A stretch of DNA of 64,000 bases from positions 38,224-102,223 of the IMG/VR virus record IMGVR_UViG_3300032291_003205. One strand, 5' to 3'. Positions 9,829 through 38,453 of the stretch are shown piece after piece. The number at the start of each line of letters is the position of its first letter. Position 1 is the first letter of the stretch. The translations under genes and the position numbers were made by a program. Origin of the DNA: a virus. The notes beneath the pieces are model-generated. The model was not told where the DNA came from. It did not search any database and saw only the letters and a program-made list of their open reading frames with translations.

Positions 9829-9853
9829 GGGTTGGCTTTTGCCAACCCTTTTT
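9829..9853 (+). terminator. Rho-independent terminator fused to a promoter
   Basis: Stem GGGTTGGC (9829-9836), loop TTTT, stem GCCAACCC (9841-9848), then five T. The -33 box of the next promoter lies inside the left arm of the stem. Confidence 0.85.
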
Positions 9854-10303: not shown

Positions 10304-10660
10304 ATGGAAAACAATTTTATCTACAATTTAAGCGAGACCGAATATTTGGTATTTAAAACCCAACGAGATTACTTTGAACTATTCAGCGGACATGAAGGTT
10401 CAGAAACAAATAGTAAACTAGCTACCTACAAAGGTGGTAGATGGATATTTAAAGATTATAATCAAAAGAAACTATTTTGGTTTTTGTTTAGTATCTATAA
10501 AAAGGATTTTGGTAAAGCGCTTAAACAATATATTCGCTCACAACAAGAAAAACCTAAAACATTGATTTTTACTTGTGCTAAACGAAGAGTTGATATTAAA
10601 ATTACAAAAATGAAGCGTAATGTGTGGGATTGGTTTTATGGAACATTTTATGGCAAATAG
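10304..10660 (+). CDS. Uncharacterised protein upstream of thyA
   Basis: A 118-residue aromatic and basic protein (YKGGRWIFKDYNQKKLFWFLF). It sits three bases after its upstream neighbour and overlaps the start of thyA, so it is probably co-transcribed with it. No family is recognised. Confidence 0.65.
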   Translation: MENNFIYNLSETEYLVFKTQRDYFELFSGHEGSETNSKLATYKGGRWIFKDYNQKKLFWFLFSIYKKDFGKALKQYIRSQQEKPKTLIFTCAKRRVDIKITKMKRNVWDWFYGTFYGK

Positions 10661-11744
10661 ATTAGACGAACAGTATCAAAGCTTACTCCAAGACATTATT
10701 GATTTTGGGGTTGACAAGCAAGATAGAACGGGAACTGGAACTAAAAGTATTTTTGGTTACATGATTCATCATAACATGAGGAATGGTTTTCCATTACTAA
10801 CTACTAAAAAGGTCCCATTCAAAACAATGGCTATTGAACTGATGTGGTTTTTGATGGGTGATACAAATATTAAGTATTTAGTTGATAACAATTGTCATAT
10901 TTGGGATGGGGACTGCTATAAGAACTATTTAAAACATTATAATATACTCGCTGAGGATTTAAATGAGTGGCAAAAAGAAAATATACCTCCTCTAACTCAA
11001 GAACAGTTTATTGATGCTATCAAAACAGACGAAGAGTTTGCTAAGAAGTGGGGTGAATTAGGACCAATCTATGGTAAGCAGTGGAGAGCATTTGATGAAG
11101 AGGAATGGGGCGGTATAGACCAAATAACAAACCTAATTAACGAGCTCAAAACAAATCCAGATTCAAGACGATTAATAGTTACAGCTTGGAATCCATCTTA
11201 TCAGCATCAAATGGTTCTTCCACCTTGTCATTATGGATTTCAAGTTTATACAAGAGAGTTGAATAGAGCAGAAAGAGTAGAAAATTACAACTCTATGTTT
11301 GAAAATAAAATAGACATACCATTCATAAAAGTAAACTTAGGAGACGTAATAGAAAATACTATTGATACAGCTTTAACTCAAGCTAACATACCAACTAGAG
11401 CAATCTCATTATCTTGGAATCAACGTTCCGTGGATGTGTTTCTAGGTTTGCCGTTTAATATTGCTTCATACGGTCTATTACTTGAGATGATTGCTCATGA
11501 GGTAAATATGGTGCCTGAACATTTAATTGGTCATTTAGGCGATACACATTTGTATTCAAACCATATTGAACAAGCTAAAGAACAAATCAGTAGAGAACCT
11601 AAAGAATTACCCACATTAAAAATGAGTTCAGGTCATAATTTTAGAGCAGCAATGGCTGGTAAAGTAGATGAAATTGATTTGAATGATTTTATTTTATTAG
11701 GATATGAACCACACCCAACAATTAAAGCACCTTTATCAAACTAA
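10650..11744 (+). CDS. thyA: Thymidylate synthase (ThyA type)
   Basis: It makes dTMP from dUMP using methylene-tetrahydrofolate. The sequence shows DRTGTGT and LLTTKKVPFKT (phosphate/folate side), ELMWFLMGDTNI, the catalytic PPCHYGF motif with the active Cys, RRLIVTAWNP, and LSWNQRSVDVFLGLPFNIASYGLLL. At 364 residues it is about 100 longer than E. coli ThyA. One insert lies after IWDGDCYKNYL, as in the longer lactobacillus-type enzymes. A second lies between the QVYTRE strand and LSWNQRS and is unusual. The start at 10650 (MANRLDEQYQ) is preferred; upstream ATGs add residues inside the preceding gene. Confidence 0.95.
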   Translation: MANRLDEQYQSLLQDIIDFGVDKQDRTGTGTKSIFGYMIHHNMRNGFPLLTTKKVPFKTMAIELMWFLMGDTNIKYLVDNNCHIWDGDCYKNYLKHYNILAEDLNEWQKENIPPLTQEQFIDAIKTDEEFAKKWGELGPIYGKQWRAFDEEEWGGIDQITNLINELKTNPDSRRLIVTAWNPSYQHQMVLPPCHYGFQVYTRELNRAERVENYNSMFENKIDIPFIKVNLGDVIENTIDTALTQANIPTRAISLSWNQRSVDVFLGLPFNIASYGLLLEMIAHEVNMVPEHLIGHLGDTHLYSNHIEQAKEQISREPKELPTLKMSSGHNFRAAMAGKVDEIDLNDFILLGYEPHPTIKAPLSN

Positions 11745-16134: not shown

Positions 16135-16818
16135 ATGGAAAATCAAAATAGTGTATGTTTTGTAGCTCGTATTAACGAGATTAAACCAATTGAAGGAGCA
16201 GACAATATCGAACTAGCAGTAATTGGTGGTTGGAACTGTATTGTAAAAAAAGGACAATACAAAGTAGATGATTTAGTAGCTGTAGCAACTACTGATGCAG
16301 TCATTCCTCAACATTTGTCTGATGATATGAATGTGACTAATTACTTACGTAAGGGTGGTCGTGTTCGTACTGTTAAATTAAGAGGTGTTTATTCCGAGTG
16401 TTTGATTATTCCTATTGAAAAAACAGGATTATTCAAATATGAGTTTACTGAAGGTAAAGATTTGATGGACATAATGTACATCTACAAGTACGAACCACCA
16501 GCAGTTCAAATCCAATTATCTTCAGGTAAGATTAGGAAATGTAAGGAGAATGAAGCTTTTAAAGTGTATTATAAATTTCCTAATATCAAGAATGTAAACG
16601 GTATGTTTAATGAATTTGATGAAGTAGAGGTAACACGTAAAATACATGGCACATCAGCAAGATATGGTATTGTTAGAAAAGTAGAATTAACTTTATTAGA
16701 TAAGGTTAAGTTGAAATTAAATAAGATGTTTGGTATTGGAGGTGATAGTTGGAAGTACTGCGATTATGAATTTTATATTGGTAGCCATAATGTTGTAAAA
16801 GATATACAAGATTTGTAA
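16135..16818 (+). CDS. RNA ligase, N-terminal piece of a split gene
   Basis: This 227-residue piece belongs to the Rnl2-like family that has an OB-fold N-terminus (TIGR02306 type). Residues 1-120 form the OB-like domain (CFVARINEIKPIEGADNIELA). The nucleotide-accepting Lys is K169 in TRKIHGTSARYG (motif I, K-x-x-G). Residues 209-220 (CDYEFYIGSHNV) are the next conserved strand. The protein then ends after eight more residues, before motifs III-V. The missing part is encoded at 19226-19741. Alone it lacks the lysine motif V and would not complete ligation. The reading frame is otherwise intact. Confidence 0.85.
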   Translation: MENQNSVCFVARINEIKPIEGADNIELAVIGGWNCIVKKGQYKVDDLVAVATTDAVIPQHLSDDMNVTNYLRKGGRVRTVKLRGVYSECLIIPIEKTGLFKYEFTEGKDLMDIMYIYKYEPPAVQIQLSSGKIRKCKENEAFKVYYKFPNIKNVNGMFNEFDEVEVTRKIHGTSARYGIVRKVELTLLDKVKLKLNKMFGIGGDSWKYCDYEFYIGSHNVVKDIQDL

Positions 16819-16825
16819 CTTTTAT

Positions 16826-16834
16826 ATATTTATG
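16826..16834 (+). promoter_or_regulatory. Late-type box ATATTTATG
   Basis: It lies 4 bases before the ATG of the GIY-YIG gene. It may let the endonuclease be expressed independently of the broken ligase gene. Confidence 0.4.
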
Positions 16835-16838
16835 TCCG

Positions 16839-17555
16839 ATGGATATTTCGAGCAATATAGGAATTTATAAAATATTAAATCCTAAAGGAAGAGTATATAT
16901 TGGACAATCTACTAATTTAAAAAATAGAGAAAAACAATATAAAAACATAAAAGAATCTAAAGAACAAATAAAATTAAATAGATCTTTTAAAAAATATGGG
17001 ATTGATAATCACCTATTTGATATTGTAGAGTATTGTACTTTAGAACAGTTAGATGATAGAGAAATATATTGGGGTGAATTTTATAATGTATTAAAAACAG
17101 GTTTAAATTGTAGATTAGGTAGAGGTAGAGGATTAGTAAGTGATGATTTGAGAGAAAGAATGAAAATATCTAATAAAAGGAAAAAAATTAAACCTGTTTT
17201 ACAATATGATTTATATGGTAATTTTATTAAAAAATGGGAAGCAATTTCAGATGCTGAAAAAAGCTTAGGAGTTAATAATAATACTAACATAAGTGCTTGT
17301 TGTTTAGGAAAACAAAAAACAGCATGGGGTTTTATTTGGAGATTTGAAAACGGGGATATAGAGAAAAAAATAGAGGGAGTAAAACACACACAAGTAGTTG
17401 TACAATATGATTTAGAAGGTAATTTTATTAAAGAATGGGATAATATAAAACAAATTAAAGAAACATTAGGTTTTTCTTATTCAACATTATATGAATGTGT
17501 AAATGGAAGATGGAAACAATGTAGTGGTTTTATTTGGAAGTATAAAGAAATTTAA
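16839..17555 (+). CDS. GIY-YIG homing endonuclease
   Basis: This 238-residue protein begins with the GIY-YIG nuclease domain: GIYKILNPKGRVYIGQS (GIY and YIG strands), then the catalytic Arg region and LDDREIYWGEFY with the metal-binding Glu. Two C-terminal modules follow, QYDLYGNFIKKWEAISDAEKSL and QYDLEGNFIKEWDNIKQIKETL (given here only in part), each followed by a GFIW(R/K) strand. These look like NUMOD-type DNA-binding repeats. It sits right after the truncated RNA ligase piece, which fits its having caused the split. Confidence 0.9.
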   Translation: MDISSNIGIYKILNPKGRVYIGQSTNLKNREKQYKNIKESKEQIKLNRSFKKYGIDNHLFDIVEYCTLEQLDDREIYWGEFYNVLKTGLNCRLGRGRGLVSDDLRERMKISNKRKKIKPVLQYDLYGNFIKKWEAISDAEKSLGVNNNTNISACCLGKQKTAWGFIWRFENGDIEKKIEGVKHTQVVVQYDLEGNFIKEWDNIKQIKETLGFSYSTLYECVNGRWKQCSGFIWKYKEI

Positions 17556-17562
17556 AAATAAA

Positions 17563-17594
17563 TTTGGCTTCCTGAAGGATTGTTCGTATATTAA
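17563..17594 (+). promoter_or_regulatory. Early-type promoter
   Basis: TTTG, 20 bases, TATATTAA. It drives the small-gene cluster inserted between the two RNA ligase pieces. Confidence 0.75.
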
Positions 17595-17624
17595 CGACAT
17601 AGAAAAAAGATAAAAATAAAAGTT

Positions 17625-17651
17625 ATGACAAACAATAAACAACAAACGGCA
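17625..17651 (+). repeat. 27-base direct repeat, copy 1
   Basis: The first nine codons of this gene are identical to 17924-17950, the first nine codons of the next gene. Confidence 0.9.
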
Positions 17652-17927
17652 GTACAACTAATTATTGAAGCCTTGGACATTGAATGCAAATCAAGAGGAA
17701 TGAATGTGAATTGGGATATGTATTTAGAAATAGAGAAGAAACAGAGGATTAAAGACAAACTTGAATTGTCAGCATCTTTAGTTAAAAATAAAGAGCAACA
17801 ACATGAAACTACTTGGATAGCAGCACTTGACTATGGAATTGAAAAACTGAAAGGTTTAAATGATTTAGAATCTAAAGATGCTTTTGAACAATACTATGAA
17901 CAAACCTACGGAGGAGGTGAGCAATGA
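17625..17927 (+). CDS. Small early protein with Shine-Dalgarno-encoding tail
   Basis: A 100-residue helical protein of unknown function. The first nine codons (MTNNKQQTA) are identical at the DNA level to those of the next gene. The last codons (TYGGGEQ) are written by the string that carries GGAGGAGG, the ribosome site of the next gene. It overlaps the next start by 4 bases. Confidence 0.65.
   Translation: MTNNKQQTAVQLIIEALDIECKSRGMNVNWDMYLEIEKKQRIKDKLELSASLVKNKEQQHETTWIAALDYGIEKLKGLNDLESKDAFEQYYEQTYGGGEQ
17905..17923 (+). promoter_or_regulatory. Strong Shine-Dalgarno inside the upstream gene
   Basis: CCTACGGAGGAGGTGAGCA precedes the ATG at 17924. Related strings occur at 18129, 18346, 18699 and 19212. 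Confidence 0.75.
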
Positions 17928-17950
17928 CAAACAATAAACAACAAACGGCA
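17924..17950 (+). repeat. 27-base direct repeat, copy 2
   Basis: Identical to 17625-17651. It suggests duplication or recombination of gene starts. Confidence 0.9.
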
Positions 17951-18145
17951 ATGAAACAACACACATACGAAGAGTTAATATCTATTTCAGATAAACTTTA
18001 CAGAGAACAAAACCCAACAGGAACTATGTGTACACCAAATAGTGTATACATAACAGTAATTGAAAAGTGGTATCCTAAATATATAGAATCTAAAAGCGAA
18101 TTAGATTTCTATGACTACTGTATTAAAACCTATGGAGGTGAGTAA
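17924..18145 (+). CDS. Small early protein with Shine-Dalgarno-encoding tail
   Basis: A 73-residue protein of unknown function. It starts with the same nine codons as its neighbour and ends TYGGE, the reading of the next gene's ribosome site. The start is set by the GGAGGAGG sequence 7-10 bases upstream. The stop overlaps the next start (TAATG). Confidence 0.65.
   Translation: MTNNKQQTAMKQHTYEELISISDKLYREQNPTGTMCTPNSVYITVIEKWYPKYIESKSELDFYDYCIKTYGGE
18129..18144 (+). promoter_or_regulatory. Strong Shine-Dalgarno inside the upstream gene
   Basis: CCTATGGAGGTGAGTA directly precedes the ATG at 18145. Confidence 0.7.
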
Positions 18146-18378
18146 TGACAAGTAAATATAAAATTGGTGACATCATAGTTACCCAAAGAGAATATTTACT
18201 CTTGTTTGATGAAGGTGAGGAGTATGAAATTGTTGATATTGAAAACAACTTGGGTGATTTAATGTATTATGTTTCTCATAACGGGAAAAGGATAGCAAGT
18301 TGGGGTCTTAAAGAATTTGAATTGGATATTCAATTTATAAAAAAACCTACGGAGGAGATAACAAATGAAAGTAAATGA
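18145..18378 (+). CDS. Small early protein
   Basis: A 77-residue protein with a beta-rich pattern (KIGDIIVTQREYLLLFDEGE) reminiscent of small SH3-like barrels; this is a weak impression only. Near its end the conserved CCTACGGAGGAG string is read in a different frame as PTEE, so the string is conserved as DNA and not as peptide. It overlaps the next gene by 14 bases. Confidence 0.6.
   Translation: MTSKYKIGDIIVTQREYLLLFDEGEEYEIVDIENNLGDLMYYVSHNGKRIASWGLKEFELDIQFIKKPTEEITNESK
18346..18364 (+). promoter_or_regulatory. Strong Shine-Dalgarno inside the upstream gene
   Basis: CCTACGGAGGAGATAACAA directly precedes the ATG at 18365. Confidence 0.7.
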
Positions 18379-18718
18379 ATTAAGAATTGGAAATTGGTAC
18401 GACCAATTTAGCAATCACCACAAAGCAACATGGGCTACTTTAAAACAATTAGATGAAGCACCCAAATCTCAACTTTGGTGCAAACCCATCCCACTCACAG
18501 AAGAATGGTTGTTAAAGTTTGGGTTTGAGCGTAGACAGATTAAAGATTTAATAAGTTACACCTTGCCAAAATTAGAGTTGTATCAATATTCATCTAATAA
18601 CAATAAGATATTTTTTGAATATGCTGATGGGGAAATACAACTTAGATATGTCCACCAACTACAAAACCTATACTTTGCTTTGACTGGTGAAGAATTAACC
18701 TACGGAGGAGGTGAGTAA
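18365..18718 (+). CDS. Small early protein with Shine-Dalgarno-encoding tail
   Basis: A 117-residue protein that begins MKVNELRIGNWYDQF. That opening is common in uncharacterised Bacteroidota phage and prophage proteins, often annotated only as hypothetical. It ends LTYGGGE, the reading of the next ribosome site. The reading LRIGNW...PIPLTEEWLLKFGF supports a real coding sequence. Confidence 0.7.
   Translation: MKVNELRIGNWYDQFSNHHKATWATLKQLDEAPKSQLWCKPIPLTEEWLLKFGFERRQIKDLISYTLPKLELYQYSSNNNKIFFEYADGEIQLRYVHQLQNLYFALTGEELTYGGGE
18699..18717 (+). promoter_or_regulatory. Strong Shine-Dalgarno inside the upstream gene
   Basis: CCTACGGAGGAGGTGAGTA directly precedes the ATG at 18718. Confidence 0.7.
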
Positions 18719-19035
18719 TGAGTCTTGACTTGAACAAACTTGCAAACAAACTTGATGAAGCGTTAAGCAATGAAACAAGCGAAACACTAAATAAATTTTT
18801 AAACGATAAAAGAATGGAAAACAACAAACAAACAACACCAGTTGTAGTAAAACAGCCCACAGGGGTAGCTATTAACACCGAAAATGTAAGCCCTGAATTA
18901 ATTAACCTTTTAACCCAAAACTTTGATCACTATGAAGATGATTATTTCGGTGTCATTGGGATGGATAACGGATCCGAAGAACATAAATCACTTATGGAAT
19001 CAATGTCTAAAATGGGTATGGAATGTAAGAAATAA
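18718..19035 (+). CDS. Small early protein
   Basis: A 105-residue protein with a helical, charged N-terminus. An internal MENNKQTTP segment resembles the MTNNKQQTA starts of nearby genes, so it may be a fusion of a short helix with a member of that set. Function is unknown. Confidence 0.6.
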   Translation: MSLDLNKLANKLDEALSNETSETLNKFLNDKRMENNKQTTPVVVKQPTGVAINTENVSPELINLLTQNFDHYEDDYFGVIGMDNGSEEHKSLMESMSKMGMECKK

Positions 19036-19052
19036 ACAATAATAAACAAATT

Positions 19053-19229
19053 ATGATACATCAAGAATTAAATGAATGGGATGAAAATATAAAAGCATTT
19101 GTAAAAGAAAAACAAATGACTAAGGAAGTACAAGAAGAATTTTTAACGGAATACGACTCTCATCTATTTAGAGGTGGAATTAACGATGTTGAATGGTTCT
19201 ATAACGAATTATATGGAGGTAACAAATGA
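19053..19229 (+). CDS. Small acidic early protein
   Basis: A 58-residue protein (MIHQELNEWDENIKAF...) that ends NELYGGNK. The last codons carry TATGGAGG, the ribosome site of the second RNA ligase piece. It overlaps that piece as ATGA, so ligase fragment translation is probably coupled to it. Confidence 0.65.
   Translation: MIHQELNEWDENIKAFVKEKQMTKEVQEEFLTEYDSHLFRGGINDVEWFYNELYGGNK
19212..19225 (+). promoter_or_regulatory. Shine-Dalgarno of the RNA ligase C-terminal piece
   Basis: TATGGAGGTAACAA directly precedes the ATG at 19226. Confidence 0.7.
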
Positions 19230-19741
19230 AAAAGTTATTTAATAAATTATTTAAAAGAAAAAAAGAGAAGACTCACTTCTACCCAACAGACGTTTGGTCT
19301 GAAATTGCTGAAAAATATCATATTAGAGAACAATTGTGGAATTTGTTTAAATCTTTACAAGATGTTTATGAGATTGGTTCCGGTATTGTAATCTATGGTG
19401 AAATTTATGGTCCTGGTATTCAAAAGAACTATGACTATGGTTTGAAAGAAATTGAATATGCTGGATTTGATATGACTATTAATGGTGAATACACACCATG
19501 TAGTACTAGTTTTATGTATCATGATATGTTGGGTTTAAAATATGTACCTGTTTTGGCTGCTGATACTTGGTCTCAAGAATTACAAGAAAGATATATGTTT
19601 GATAAAATCGAAGGAACTAAAGTACCACATGAAGGTGTTGTAATTAAATCTATGGATGGTGACAGACGTAAAGTAGCTAAAATAATCAATCCAGAATATT
19701 TGATTTACGGTGAAAAAAATAACGTAGGAGATTCACACTAA
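19226..19741 (+). CDS. RNA ligase, C-terminal piece of a split gene
   Basis: A 171-residue piece. A Lys-rich leader of about 15 residues (MKKLFNKLFKRKKEK) comes first, then THFYPTDVWSEIAEKYHI, which continues the fold where the upstream piece stops. IVIYGEIYGPGIQ (residues 55-66) is motif III, PHEGVVIK (134-141) is motif IV, and KVAKIINPEYL (149-159) is motif V with its lysines. It contains no motif I lysine, so it needs the 16135-16818 product to act. The start has its own Shine-Dalgarno and ATGA coupling. Confidence 0.85.
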   Translation: MKKLFNKLFKRKKEKTHFYPTDVWSEIAEKYHIREQLWNLFKSLQDVYEIGSGIVIYGEIYGPGIQKNYDYGLKEIEYAGFDMTINGEYTPCSTSFMYHDMLGLKYVPVLAADTWSQELQERYMFDKIEGTKVPHEGVVIKSMDGDRRKVAKIINPEYLIYGEKNNVGDSH

Positions 19742-37054: not shown

Positions 37055-38453
37055 AATATTATTATTTTTTATGATAATTGGACTGCCTCTCTTGGGGCAG
37101 TCCTTTACTTATAGTTATATAGATCCGTGTACTCGCACGACAAAATTTATTAACGCCGACATGAGTGCTCCTGTTGTTATCGCGTATTATGGACAGGTAA
37201 AAACGTTTACTTACGCACAATTAAGTGACGGTACGTTTGATGCTTGGATTAATAATATTTATACCCAGTACAAAACAACCTCACCTTGTCAGGGGGTAGT
37301 TACTACTACAACAACTACAACATCCACTAATACAGTTTCAAACCTTATAGGTAATGTAACTAGTTTAGTAAGTTTAGATTTTTCCTCTGTAACAGGAGGT
37401 GTATCTGGGGGTGTTGGAACAAATGTAGGAGGAACTACATCTTCAGGAACAGGAAGTGTTAAAACCGATAAAAAAGATGGTAATAATAATTCTAATAATA
37501 GTACTTCTAGTGATAATAGTGGATCTACTTCTAACGAGGGAGGAAACCAAACGGGAGAAAATGGAGGAAATCCACCAGAAAATCAAGGCGGGTCTAATGG
37601 ATCCGGAGGAGGAACAGTAGGTGGAAACTCTAGTTCAGGCAATAGTTCTAATTCTTCTAGCGGTTCTGGCTCTGGTTCTGGGTCCGGTGCTAGTAATGAT
37701 CAACCAAAAACTGAAACAGAAAAACCATCAGACCAAAAAGTAGAAGATACTAAAACTGAAACACAAAAATCCTCTTCTAGTGCTACAGCAAAAGCAGCTG
37801 GTAAAGGTAAAGTTGAGACAGCTAAACCAGCTATCCTAATGACAGGAGATATAGTTGGGGTTCAAACAAGATCAGATGGAACACAAGATGCTAGAGGTAC
37901 TATGTCTTTTACTAAAGTAAAAGGAGATGGTACAGCATCAATAGGTTTTTCAGCTGATTATATGGTTAATGCTAAAATAGGTAATATTTCTGCTGTACGT
38001 TCTTGGATTGGTTCTAACAATAAAGGAAATAAACATATTAATGTTATTTCAGATGGATTAAGTATCATGCCAGATGCCTTATCTAATACTCTATTATTTG
38101 TTAGAGTAAATTCAATTAAAAATTTTACTGCTTTATATGGTGGTGCTGCAACTTATGGAAAATTATATGGTGAGGAAATGATTTCTACAATCATTATAGG
38201 TGGTTTTATGTATAAAGGAAAAGTTACTAAAGCATTAGATGCTACAGTTATTATGGCCGGTATCTATTCTCCTTACTCAAAATATTATACAGAATCATTA
38301 TTTAAAGCAAGACCAATTATAGTACCATTTTTAAATTTAAATTATAAATTAACTAAAACATTTGGGATTGGGTTAACTGGAGGAGGTACTTATATAGCTG
38401 GGAAAGATGTTTTAAATTTTCAAATTTTGATGGGAGCAAAAATGAAGATATGA
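37035..38453 (+). CDS. Probable outer-membrane protein with a low-complexity linker
   Basis: A 472-residue protein with a signal peptide (ILLFFMIIGLPLLGQ). A small N-terminal domain carries two Cys (PCTRTTKF and SPCQG). A Thr/Ser/Gly/Asn linker runs from about residue 95 to 265. The C-terminal 200 residues alternate strands and end LNFQILMGAKMKI, which fits a small beta-barrel or a barrel-like domain. It overlaps the CsgG-like gene by 20 bases and the next gene by 4, so the three are co-translated. Exact family unrecognised. Confidence 0.6.
   Translation: MVSLQNKILLFFMIIGLPLLGQSFTYSYIDPCTRTTKFINADMSAPVVIAYYGQVKTFTYAQLSDGTFDAWINNIYTQYKTTSPCQGVVTTTTTTTSTNTVSNLIGNVTSLVSLDFSSVTGGVSGGVGTNVGGTTSSGTGSVKTDKKDGNNNSNNSTSSDNSGSTSNEGGNQTGENGGNPPENQGGSNGSGGGTVGGNSSSGNSSNSSSGSGSGSGSGASNDQPKTETEKPSDQKVEDTKTETQKSSSSATAKAAGKGKVETAKPAILMTGDIVGVQTRSDGTQDARGTMSFTKVKGDGTASIGFSADYMVNAKIGNISAVRSWIGSNNKGNKHINVISDGLSIMPDALSNTLLFVRVNSIKNFTALYGGAATYGKLYGEEMISTIIIGGFMYKGKVTKALDATVIMAGIYSPYSKYYTESLFKARPIIVPFLNLNYKLTKTFGIGLTGGGTYIAGKDVLNFQILMGAKMKI

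Follow-up and report, generated by a model that had tools for sequence, protein, structure and literature searches.

An RNA ligase gene divided into two cistrons, with a homing endonuclease at the break, in a phage of probable Bacteroidota origin

Documented gene splits by homing endonucleases are few, and how such splits persist is unclear. In Aeromonas phage Aeh1 nrdA is split by mobE (Friedrich 2007, as described in a review, PMC2988022), and the same review names the interval between nrdA and nrdB of T-even phages as the place of MobE (PMC2988022). For gene 43 of Aeromonas phage 25 the review does not decide whether the split is due to the nuclease (PMC2988022). Here a locus of this kind is described in a window of 64,000 nucleotides, the whole stretch analysed (positions 38,224 to 102,223 of the IMG/VR virus record IMGVR_UViG_3300032291_003205), in which an RNA ligase gene lies in two pieces on the plus strand, at window positions 16135–16818 and 19226–19741. 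The account that best explains the locus as a whole, and which is probably correct, is that a homing endonuclease split the gene, that the product is a two-part ligase, and that the junction has spread by homing. The window belongs to a possibly partial virus record of 102,223 bases. The phage is probably myovirus-like and of Bacteroidota because its baseplate wedge protein is 44% identical, over the full length, to the Flavobacterium phages immuto counterpart.

Two consecutive parts of one ligase

The N-terminal half (227 aa, 16135–16818) contains the PHA02142 OB-fold domain (PF21189, 1.4e-15), nucleotidyltransferase motif I (KIHGTS) and the strand EFYIGSHNV, and ends with the tail VKDIQDL before the stop codon. 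The C-terminal half (171 aa, 19226–19741) begins with a Lys-rich leader, and profile searching matches the RNA_ligase domain (PF09414, 2.7e-10) from position 44 through its end, with motifs III (YGEIYG), IV (HEGVVIK) and V (KVAKIINP). An earlier note, made from the letters of the window, had correctly located the parts that it named in the two open reading frames (ORFs), and had read them as the pieces of a single ligase. This is borne out by TIGR02306, to which the two products align consecutively and without overlap, the N-half at positions 5–172 and the C-half at 213–339; overlapping halves are ruled out by these ranges together with the conserved-column comparison below. The N-half supplies the motif I lysine and the C-half motifs III, IV and V; judged from the family, neither half alone would hold a full active site. 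A single RNA_ligase match is found in the whole 102 kb record.

The same note had called the reconstructed enzyme Rnl2-like, a part of its claim that does not stand. Against the Rnl2 family TIGR02307, with a cut-off of 197 bits, the C-half scores 20.5 and an intact relative, L003, 22.2. The ligase is instead related to the NgrRnl/DraRnl type (TIGR02306), and has its domain order, with an OB-fold domain placed before a ligase domain bearing motifs I, III, IV and V. By the curated score rule it is not a member of that family, as the intact relatives L003 and L156 reach 99.9 and 117.9 bits against a cut-off of 151. The best match of L003, both by sequence and by fold, is the Naegleria gruberi RNA ligase (5cot), and motifs III–V of the C-half align with the NgrRnl segments whose mutants E227A, E312A and K326A figure in PDB titles.

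Relatives were collected by scanning IMG/VR with the C-half (best 80 of 238 kept) and the N-half (76). An unbroken ORF runs from the N-half through the C-half in 149 N-half loci, and 143 distinct intact ORF sequences occur across all loci, which supplies the unsplit versions that the earlier note had proposed to look for. Contig-end cases aside, the only exceptions are L002/L082 (one contig) and L096. Because the intact gene is the rule among these relatives, the split is, on this comparison, the derived state. A later IMG/VR scan with L156 yielded no new split and added only a duplicated C-terminal piece (L363/L364). These two loci had the look of an insertion, but each (L363 5001–6637, L364 5001–6641) is a partial duplication, in which about 74 codons of the C-terminal part are repeated after an intact ligase gene. 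The junction pattern HFYPTDVW is absent from genome contigs and in viral contigs occurs only in the two known split contigs, although splits with a different junction would escape it. Among isolated phages no close relative of either half was found.

The break lies at the EKGSDSQG loop. At this position the relatives read GSHNVEKGSDSQGFY; in the window the N-half reads GSHNVVK-DIQDL and stops, and the C-half resumes with FYPTDVW after a new start codon and the leader MKKLFNKLFKRKKEKTH (19226–19276). Both halves had been credited in the earlier note with short added tails. This holds for the leader, which is truly new, and not for the N-terminal tail, since KDIQDL lines up with KGSDSQGFY, a conserved loop of which it seems to be a remnant rather than a wholly added sequence. 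When columns conserved in at least 95% of 96 intact sequences are compared, the N-half keeps 91 of 100, with about half of the misses at the junction, and the C-half keeps those after FY with few exceptions. In the predicted structure of the intact protein the break falls in a low-confidence loop (residues 214–224) between a strand and a helix; in the model of the C-half the leader is similarly of low confidence, with a predicted local distance difference test score of about 40. The C-half has its own Shine–Dalgarno sequence, as had been claimed: GGAGG (19215–19219) lies 6 nt before the ATG, within the same GGAGGTAACAAATG that is present in L002.

Nucleases and small genes in the gap

The gene that begins 20 nt after the stop codon of the N-half (16839–17555) encodes a GIY-YIG homing endonuclease with two NUMOD1-type repeats (PF07453, 3.1e-14, above its cut-off). 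It scores 78.2 bits on TIGR01453, the ‘group I intron endonuclease’ family (9e-22, cut-off 56), and 22.3 bits on PF01541 (1.6e-4), just under the cut-off of 22.6. The gene appears intact, with a predicted GIY-YIG domain as well as DNA-binding repeats, and the homing endonuclease that the earlier note had placed at the left junction is thereby recovered. Profile and Rfam searches reveal an endonuclease at the break and neither an intron nor an intein. L096 carries a different, MobE-like nuclease between its halves, of HNH type with NUMOD1. The HNH call is based on sequence motifs and on a resemblance, at 33.5% identity, to the endonuclease that T-even phages encode between nrdA and nrdB, Pfam having matched only the NUMOD1 part.

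The nuclease genes of the window and L002 differ at 2 of 717 nt (99.7% identity), and no difference at all is seen from 17056 to 17627. The C-half is 98.6% identical; farther out the figure is about 80% (left of 16500) and 84% (beyond 20744). This profile is consistent with homing accompanied by co-conversion, but ordinary recombination could leave a tract much like it, and no twin of the window phage with an empty site came to light.

Between the nuclease gene and the C-half, and like both of them on the plus strand, are six small ORFs (17625–19229), headed by a promoter-like element (17563–17593) of the form TTTGG-N15-TTCGTATATTA, in agreement with the earlier note's cluster of six small genes with its own promoter. 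Matches to this pattern number 17 in the window against 2.0 expected. Small gene 1 (17625–17927, MTNNKQQTAV... TYGGGEQ) has homologues about 50% identical in other phage contigs and no match in isolated phages; gene 2 (17924–18145) starts MTNNKQQTAM; gene 3 (18145–18378) has a weak Phage_tudor match below the cut-off; gene 4 (18365–18718) has distant homologues at other loci; gene 5 (18718–19035) is 80–86% identical over its first 42–46 aa to genes in other phage contigs; and gene 6 (19053–19229) contains the Shine–Dalgarno sequence of the C-half at its 3′ end. In the window and L002 the sequence stays identical across the promoter-like element and as far as the end of the ATG at 17625–17627. 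The six small genes of L002 are then entirely different from those of the window, and likeness returns at the Shine–Dalgarno context before the C-half. Several of the L002 genes are present elsewhere, some of them 95–99% identical in other contigs. Because the cargo differs between the two phages and L002 cargo occurs in other contigs, the gap is, from these comparisons, a place where genes are exchanged. Between the halves of L096 there are no cargo genes.

Two further observations concern these elements. An exact 27-nt start, ATGACAAACAATAAACAACAAACGGCA, followed by differing bodies, is common to small phage genes in the window (17625–18145) and in at least 120 IMG/VR stretches (L166–L285). 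A tighter form of the promoter-like pattern, [TG]TTGG-N15-TTCGTATATT, has 13 matches in the window, at 9831, 14577, 15463, 17563, 20758, 22623, 24265, 24584, 25903, 26495, 28364, 29238 and 29995; copies are followed by an A-rich stretch and an ATG within about 60 nt, and head many small gene groups.

Constraint on the halves and probable movement of the junction

Split alleles are present in three phages: that of the window, L002 and L096. L096 is broken at the same loop, and its tail KKIQSL and leader MKKLLNKIFKKKQTH are homologous to those of the window. The splits share FGIGGDxWKxCxYEFxIGSHNVxKxIQxL, followed by the stop codon, and MKKLxNKxFKxKK..THFYPTDVWSEI, both absent from intact relatives; the left junction tract of the window (16675–16818, RKVELT...FGIGGDSWKYCDYEFYIGSHNVVKDIQDL and stop) is likewise common to L096 and missing from intact genes. 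All three splits have a spacing of 41 aa between HGT[NS] and GSHN, against 32–34 aa in 94 of the 96 intact sequences. In trees of the distal parts, away from the junction, L096 lies beside the intact L156, and the window and L002 lie near L003–L005; the C-half tree rejects a single clade of splits (approximately unbiased test, p 5.6e-6). On the left and right junction tracts taken together the splits group (Shimodaira–Hasegawa-like approximate likelihood ratio test, 93), and there L096 shares 22 sites exclusively with the window and 5 exclusively with L156.

The L096 ligase gene is a mosaic with a sharp edge. Its DNA identity to L156 is mostly 90–100% up to HGTNARY, falls to 10–56% in the junction, where the sequence is window-like, and is high again after KLWEH. 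The simplest reading would be that a split junction was transferred into an L156-like ligase. Because the change from L156-like to window-like sequence is so abrupt, the split allele has probably spread by homing with co-conversion, carrying with it the stop, the start codon and the Lys-rich leader. The intact gene L107, whose left tract is similar in part (WKWSEYEF), may resemble the allele that was first split. As a separate observation, the ligase genes of L096 (7301–9308) and L156 (8001–9131) are alike from start codon to terminator outside the split junction, with unrelated sequence upstream, which suggests a gene that moves whole, like a cassette.

The ratio of nonsynonymous to synonymous change (dN/dS) between the window and L002 is 0.17 in the distal N-half, 0.16 in the N-half junction and 0.09 in the C-half (7 changes). 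Between the window and L096 the differences in the C-half leader fall 2/1/7 by codon position (7 of 10 at third positions, p 0.02), and for leader and start together 14 of 20 are at third positions (p 0.0009). Because of this third-position excess the leader is most likely translated. The two halves most likely co-assemble because essential active-site motifs are divided between them, and the conservation suggests that the split form has probably retained ligase activity.

Several points weigh against this account. The break costs the protein most of the EKGSDSQG loop, which nearly all intact relatives conserve, and in motif I the window and L002 have HGTS in place of HGTN, the Asn being retained in L096. 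Part of the low dN/dS dates from the time when one of the lineages did not yet have the split. The N-half tree alone does not reject one split clade (p 0.105), and the clustering of junction tracts involves few columns and long branches. Finally, a second ligase may exist outside the possibly partial record.

The alternative that survives best is that the insertion killed the gene and left the halves as remnants of a decaying pseudogene. The lost loop, the Asn to Ser change in motif I and the rarity of the split, seen in three records, would fit such decay. However, in all three phages both halves are open, outside the junction most conserved columns are retained, dN/dS is 0.09–0.17, and the new leader and start are coding-like and common to distant lineages, so that decay appears unlikely. 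Slightly less credible is that the window/L002 and L096 genes were split independently at the same loop with convergent tails, a question of history only and compatible with a working split enzyme. The differing nucleases (GIY-YIG and HNH) and ligase lineages would be expected of separate events, but not the 41-aa spacing and the tail and leader sequences common to the splits and missing from intact relatives, nor the abrupt change within L096. It is improbable that the halves have separate jobs and form no ligase, with for example the OB-fold N-half acting as an RNA-binding protein; in the window a promoter-like element does stand separately ahead of the cargo genes and the C-half, but both halves keep catalytic motifs that are useless alone, the motif I lysine in one and motifs III–V in the other. 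Least probable of all is that the halves are exons joined by RNA splicing, with the nuclease and the other genes inside an intron, for although the window nuclease belongs to TIGR01453 and in phage ICP1 splicing joins gene fragments that are separated by different HNH nucleases (PMC10448857), no group I or II intron covariance model in Rfam matches the window (E <= 5), L096 or L002 (E <= 2), there is little room (the 20 nt before the window nuclease; 106 + 27 nt of non-coding sequence in total in L096), the window and L002 are unrelated ahead of the C-half Shine–Dalgarno sequence, and the leader evolves as coding sequence.

On the favoured account of a homing-endonuclease split, a free-standing nuclease would have inserted into an NgrRnl/DraRnl-type ligase gene in the loop between the strand EYxYGSHNV and the helix before motif III. 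Two cistrons would result, the N-half with the OB domain and motif I ending at an in-frame stop, and the C-half with motifs III–V newly provided with a ribosome-binding site, a start codon and the Lys-rich leader. Most likely both polypeptides fold together and form one active site. Left tract, stop, nuclease gene, start, leader and right tract would move as a unit, the nuclease presumably cutting an intact allele at this site and repair copying the nuclease gene along with flanks of about 150 nt on the left and 100 nt on the right, so that transfer would run from split to intact gene. In the window/L002 lineage the gap may later have begun to take up exchangeable small genes, placed behind a phage promoter of standard type. 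A further step, put forward tentatively as possible rather than probable, is that this is a gene-splitting homing element with ready-made stop, start codon, leader and flanking codons, that each homing event yields a working two-subunit ligase, that the nuclease is exchangeable (GIY-YIG or HNH), and that the gap collects cargo. If true, such an element would lower the cost of insertion with neither intron nor intein.

Elsewhere in the window, thymidylate synthase (10620–11744) seems to hold an extra stretch of about 80 aa because its 374 aa match only about 284 PHROG positions.

Comparison with described systems

The intact relatives share with the Naegleria gruberi enzyme and TIGR02306 (DRB0094) an N-terminal OB-fold domain joined to a ligase domain; they differ in scoring 100–118 bits (L003/L156), below 151, and the window version differs in being in two pieces. 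A search of open-licence papers found no published split RNA ligase, and the break marks a natural split point for a two-part enzyme. The three split alleles, set among more than 100 intact ones, suggest a split moving between lineages with its own translation signals, and a cheap insertion strategy that dispenses with self-splicing becomes testable.

The T4 topoisomerase gene 60/39 (mobA) and gene 43 of Aeromonas phage 25 (seg43) similarly have gene pieces beside a homing endonuclease, although the enzymes are others (PMC2988022). In phage ICP1 (PMC10448857), as here, related phages have different nucleases at one break; its fragments are spliced, whereas the window, L002 and L096 show no sign of splicing, and ICP1-type splicing is unlikely at this locus. 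The PeSL promoter cassettes of T4-like phages, as cited in PMC4503421, are also repeated promoter elements bordering exchanged small genes; they belong to a different phage group, and the link is suggested only by the position of the cargo exchange.

The closest likeness is to Aeh1 nrdA, as the earlier note had proposed, the split here being real, derived and tied to a homing endonuclease. In both, with the Aeh1 case as the review describes it (PMC2988022), an enzyme gene is broken into two cistrons by a free-standing homing endonuclease, with no intron or intein, and the L096 nuclease resembles the nrdA/nrdB endonuclease of T-even phages. Compared with that account, the present case is known from sequence, the target is an RNA ligase, the window and L002 nuclease is of GIY-YIG type, three alleles with different nucleases are present, cargo genes lie in the gap, and the junction can be traced in two gene lineages. 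What this locus would add to the Aeh1 pattern is another enzyme, a break at which two types of nuclease occur, cargo genes, and signs of a split junction that moves between gene lineages.

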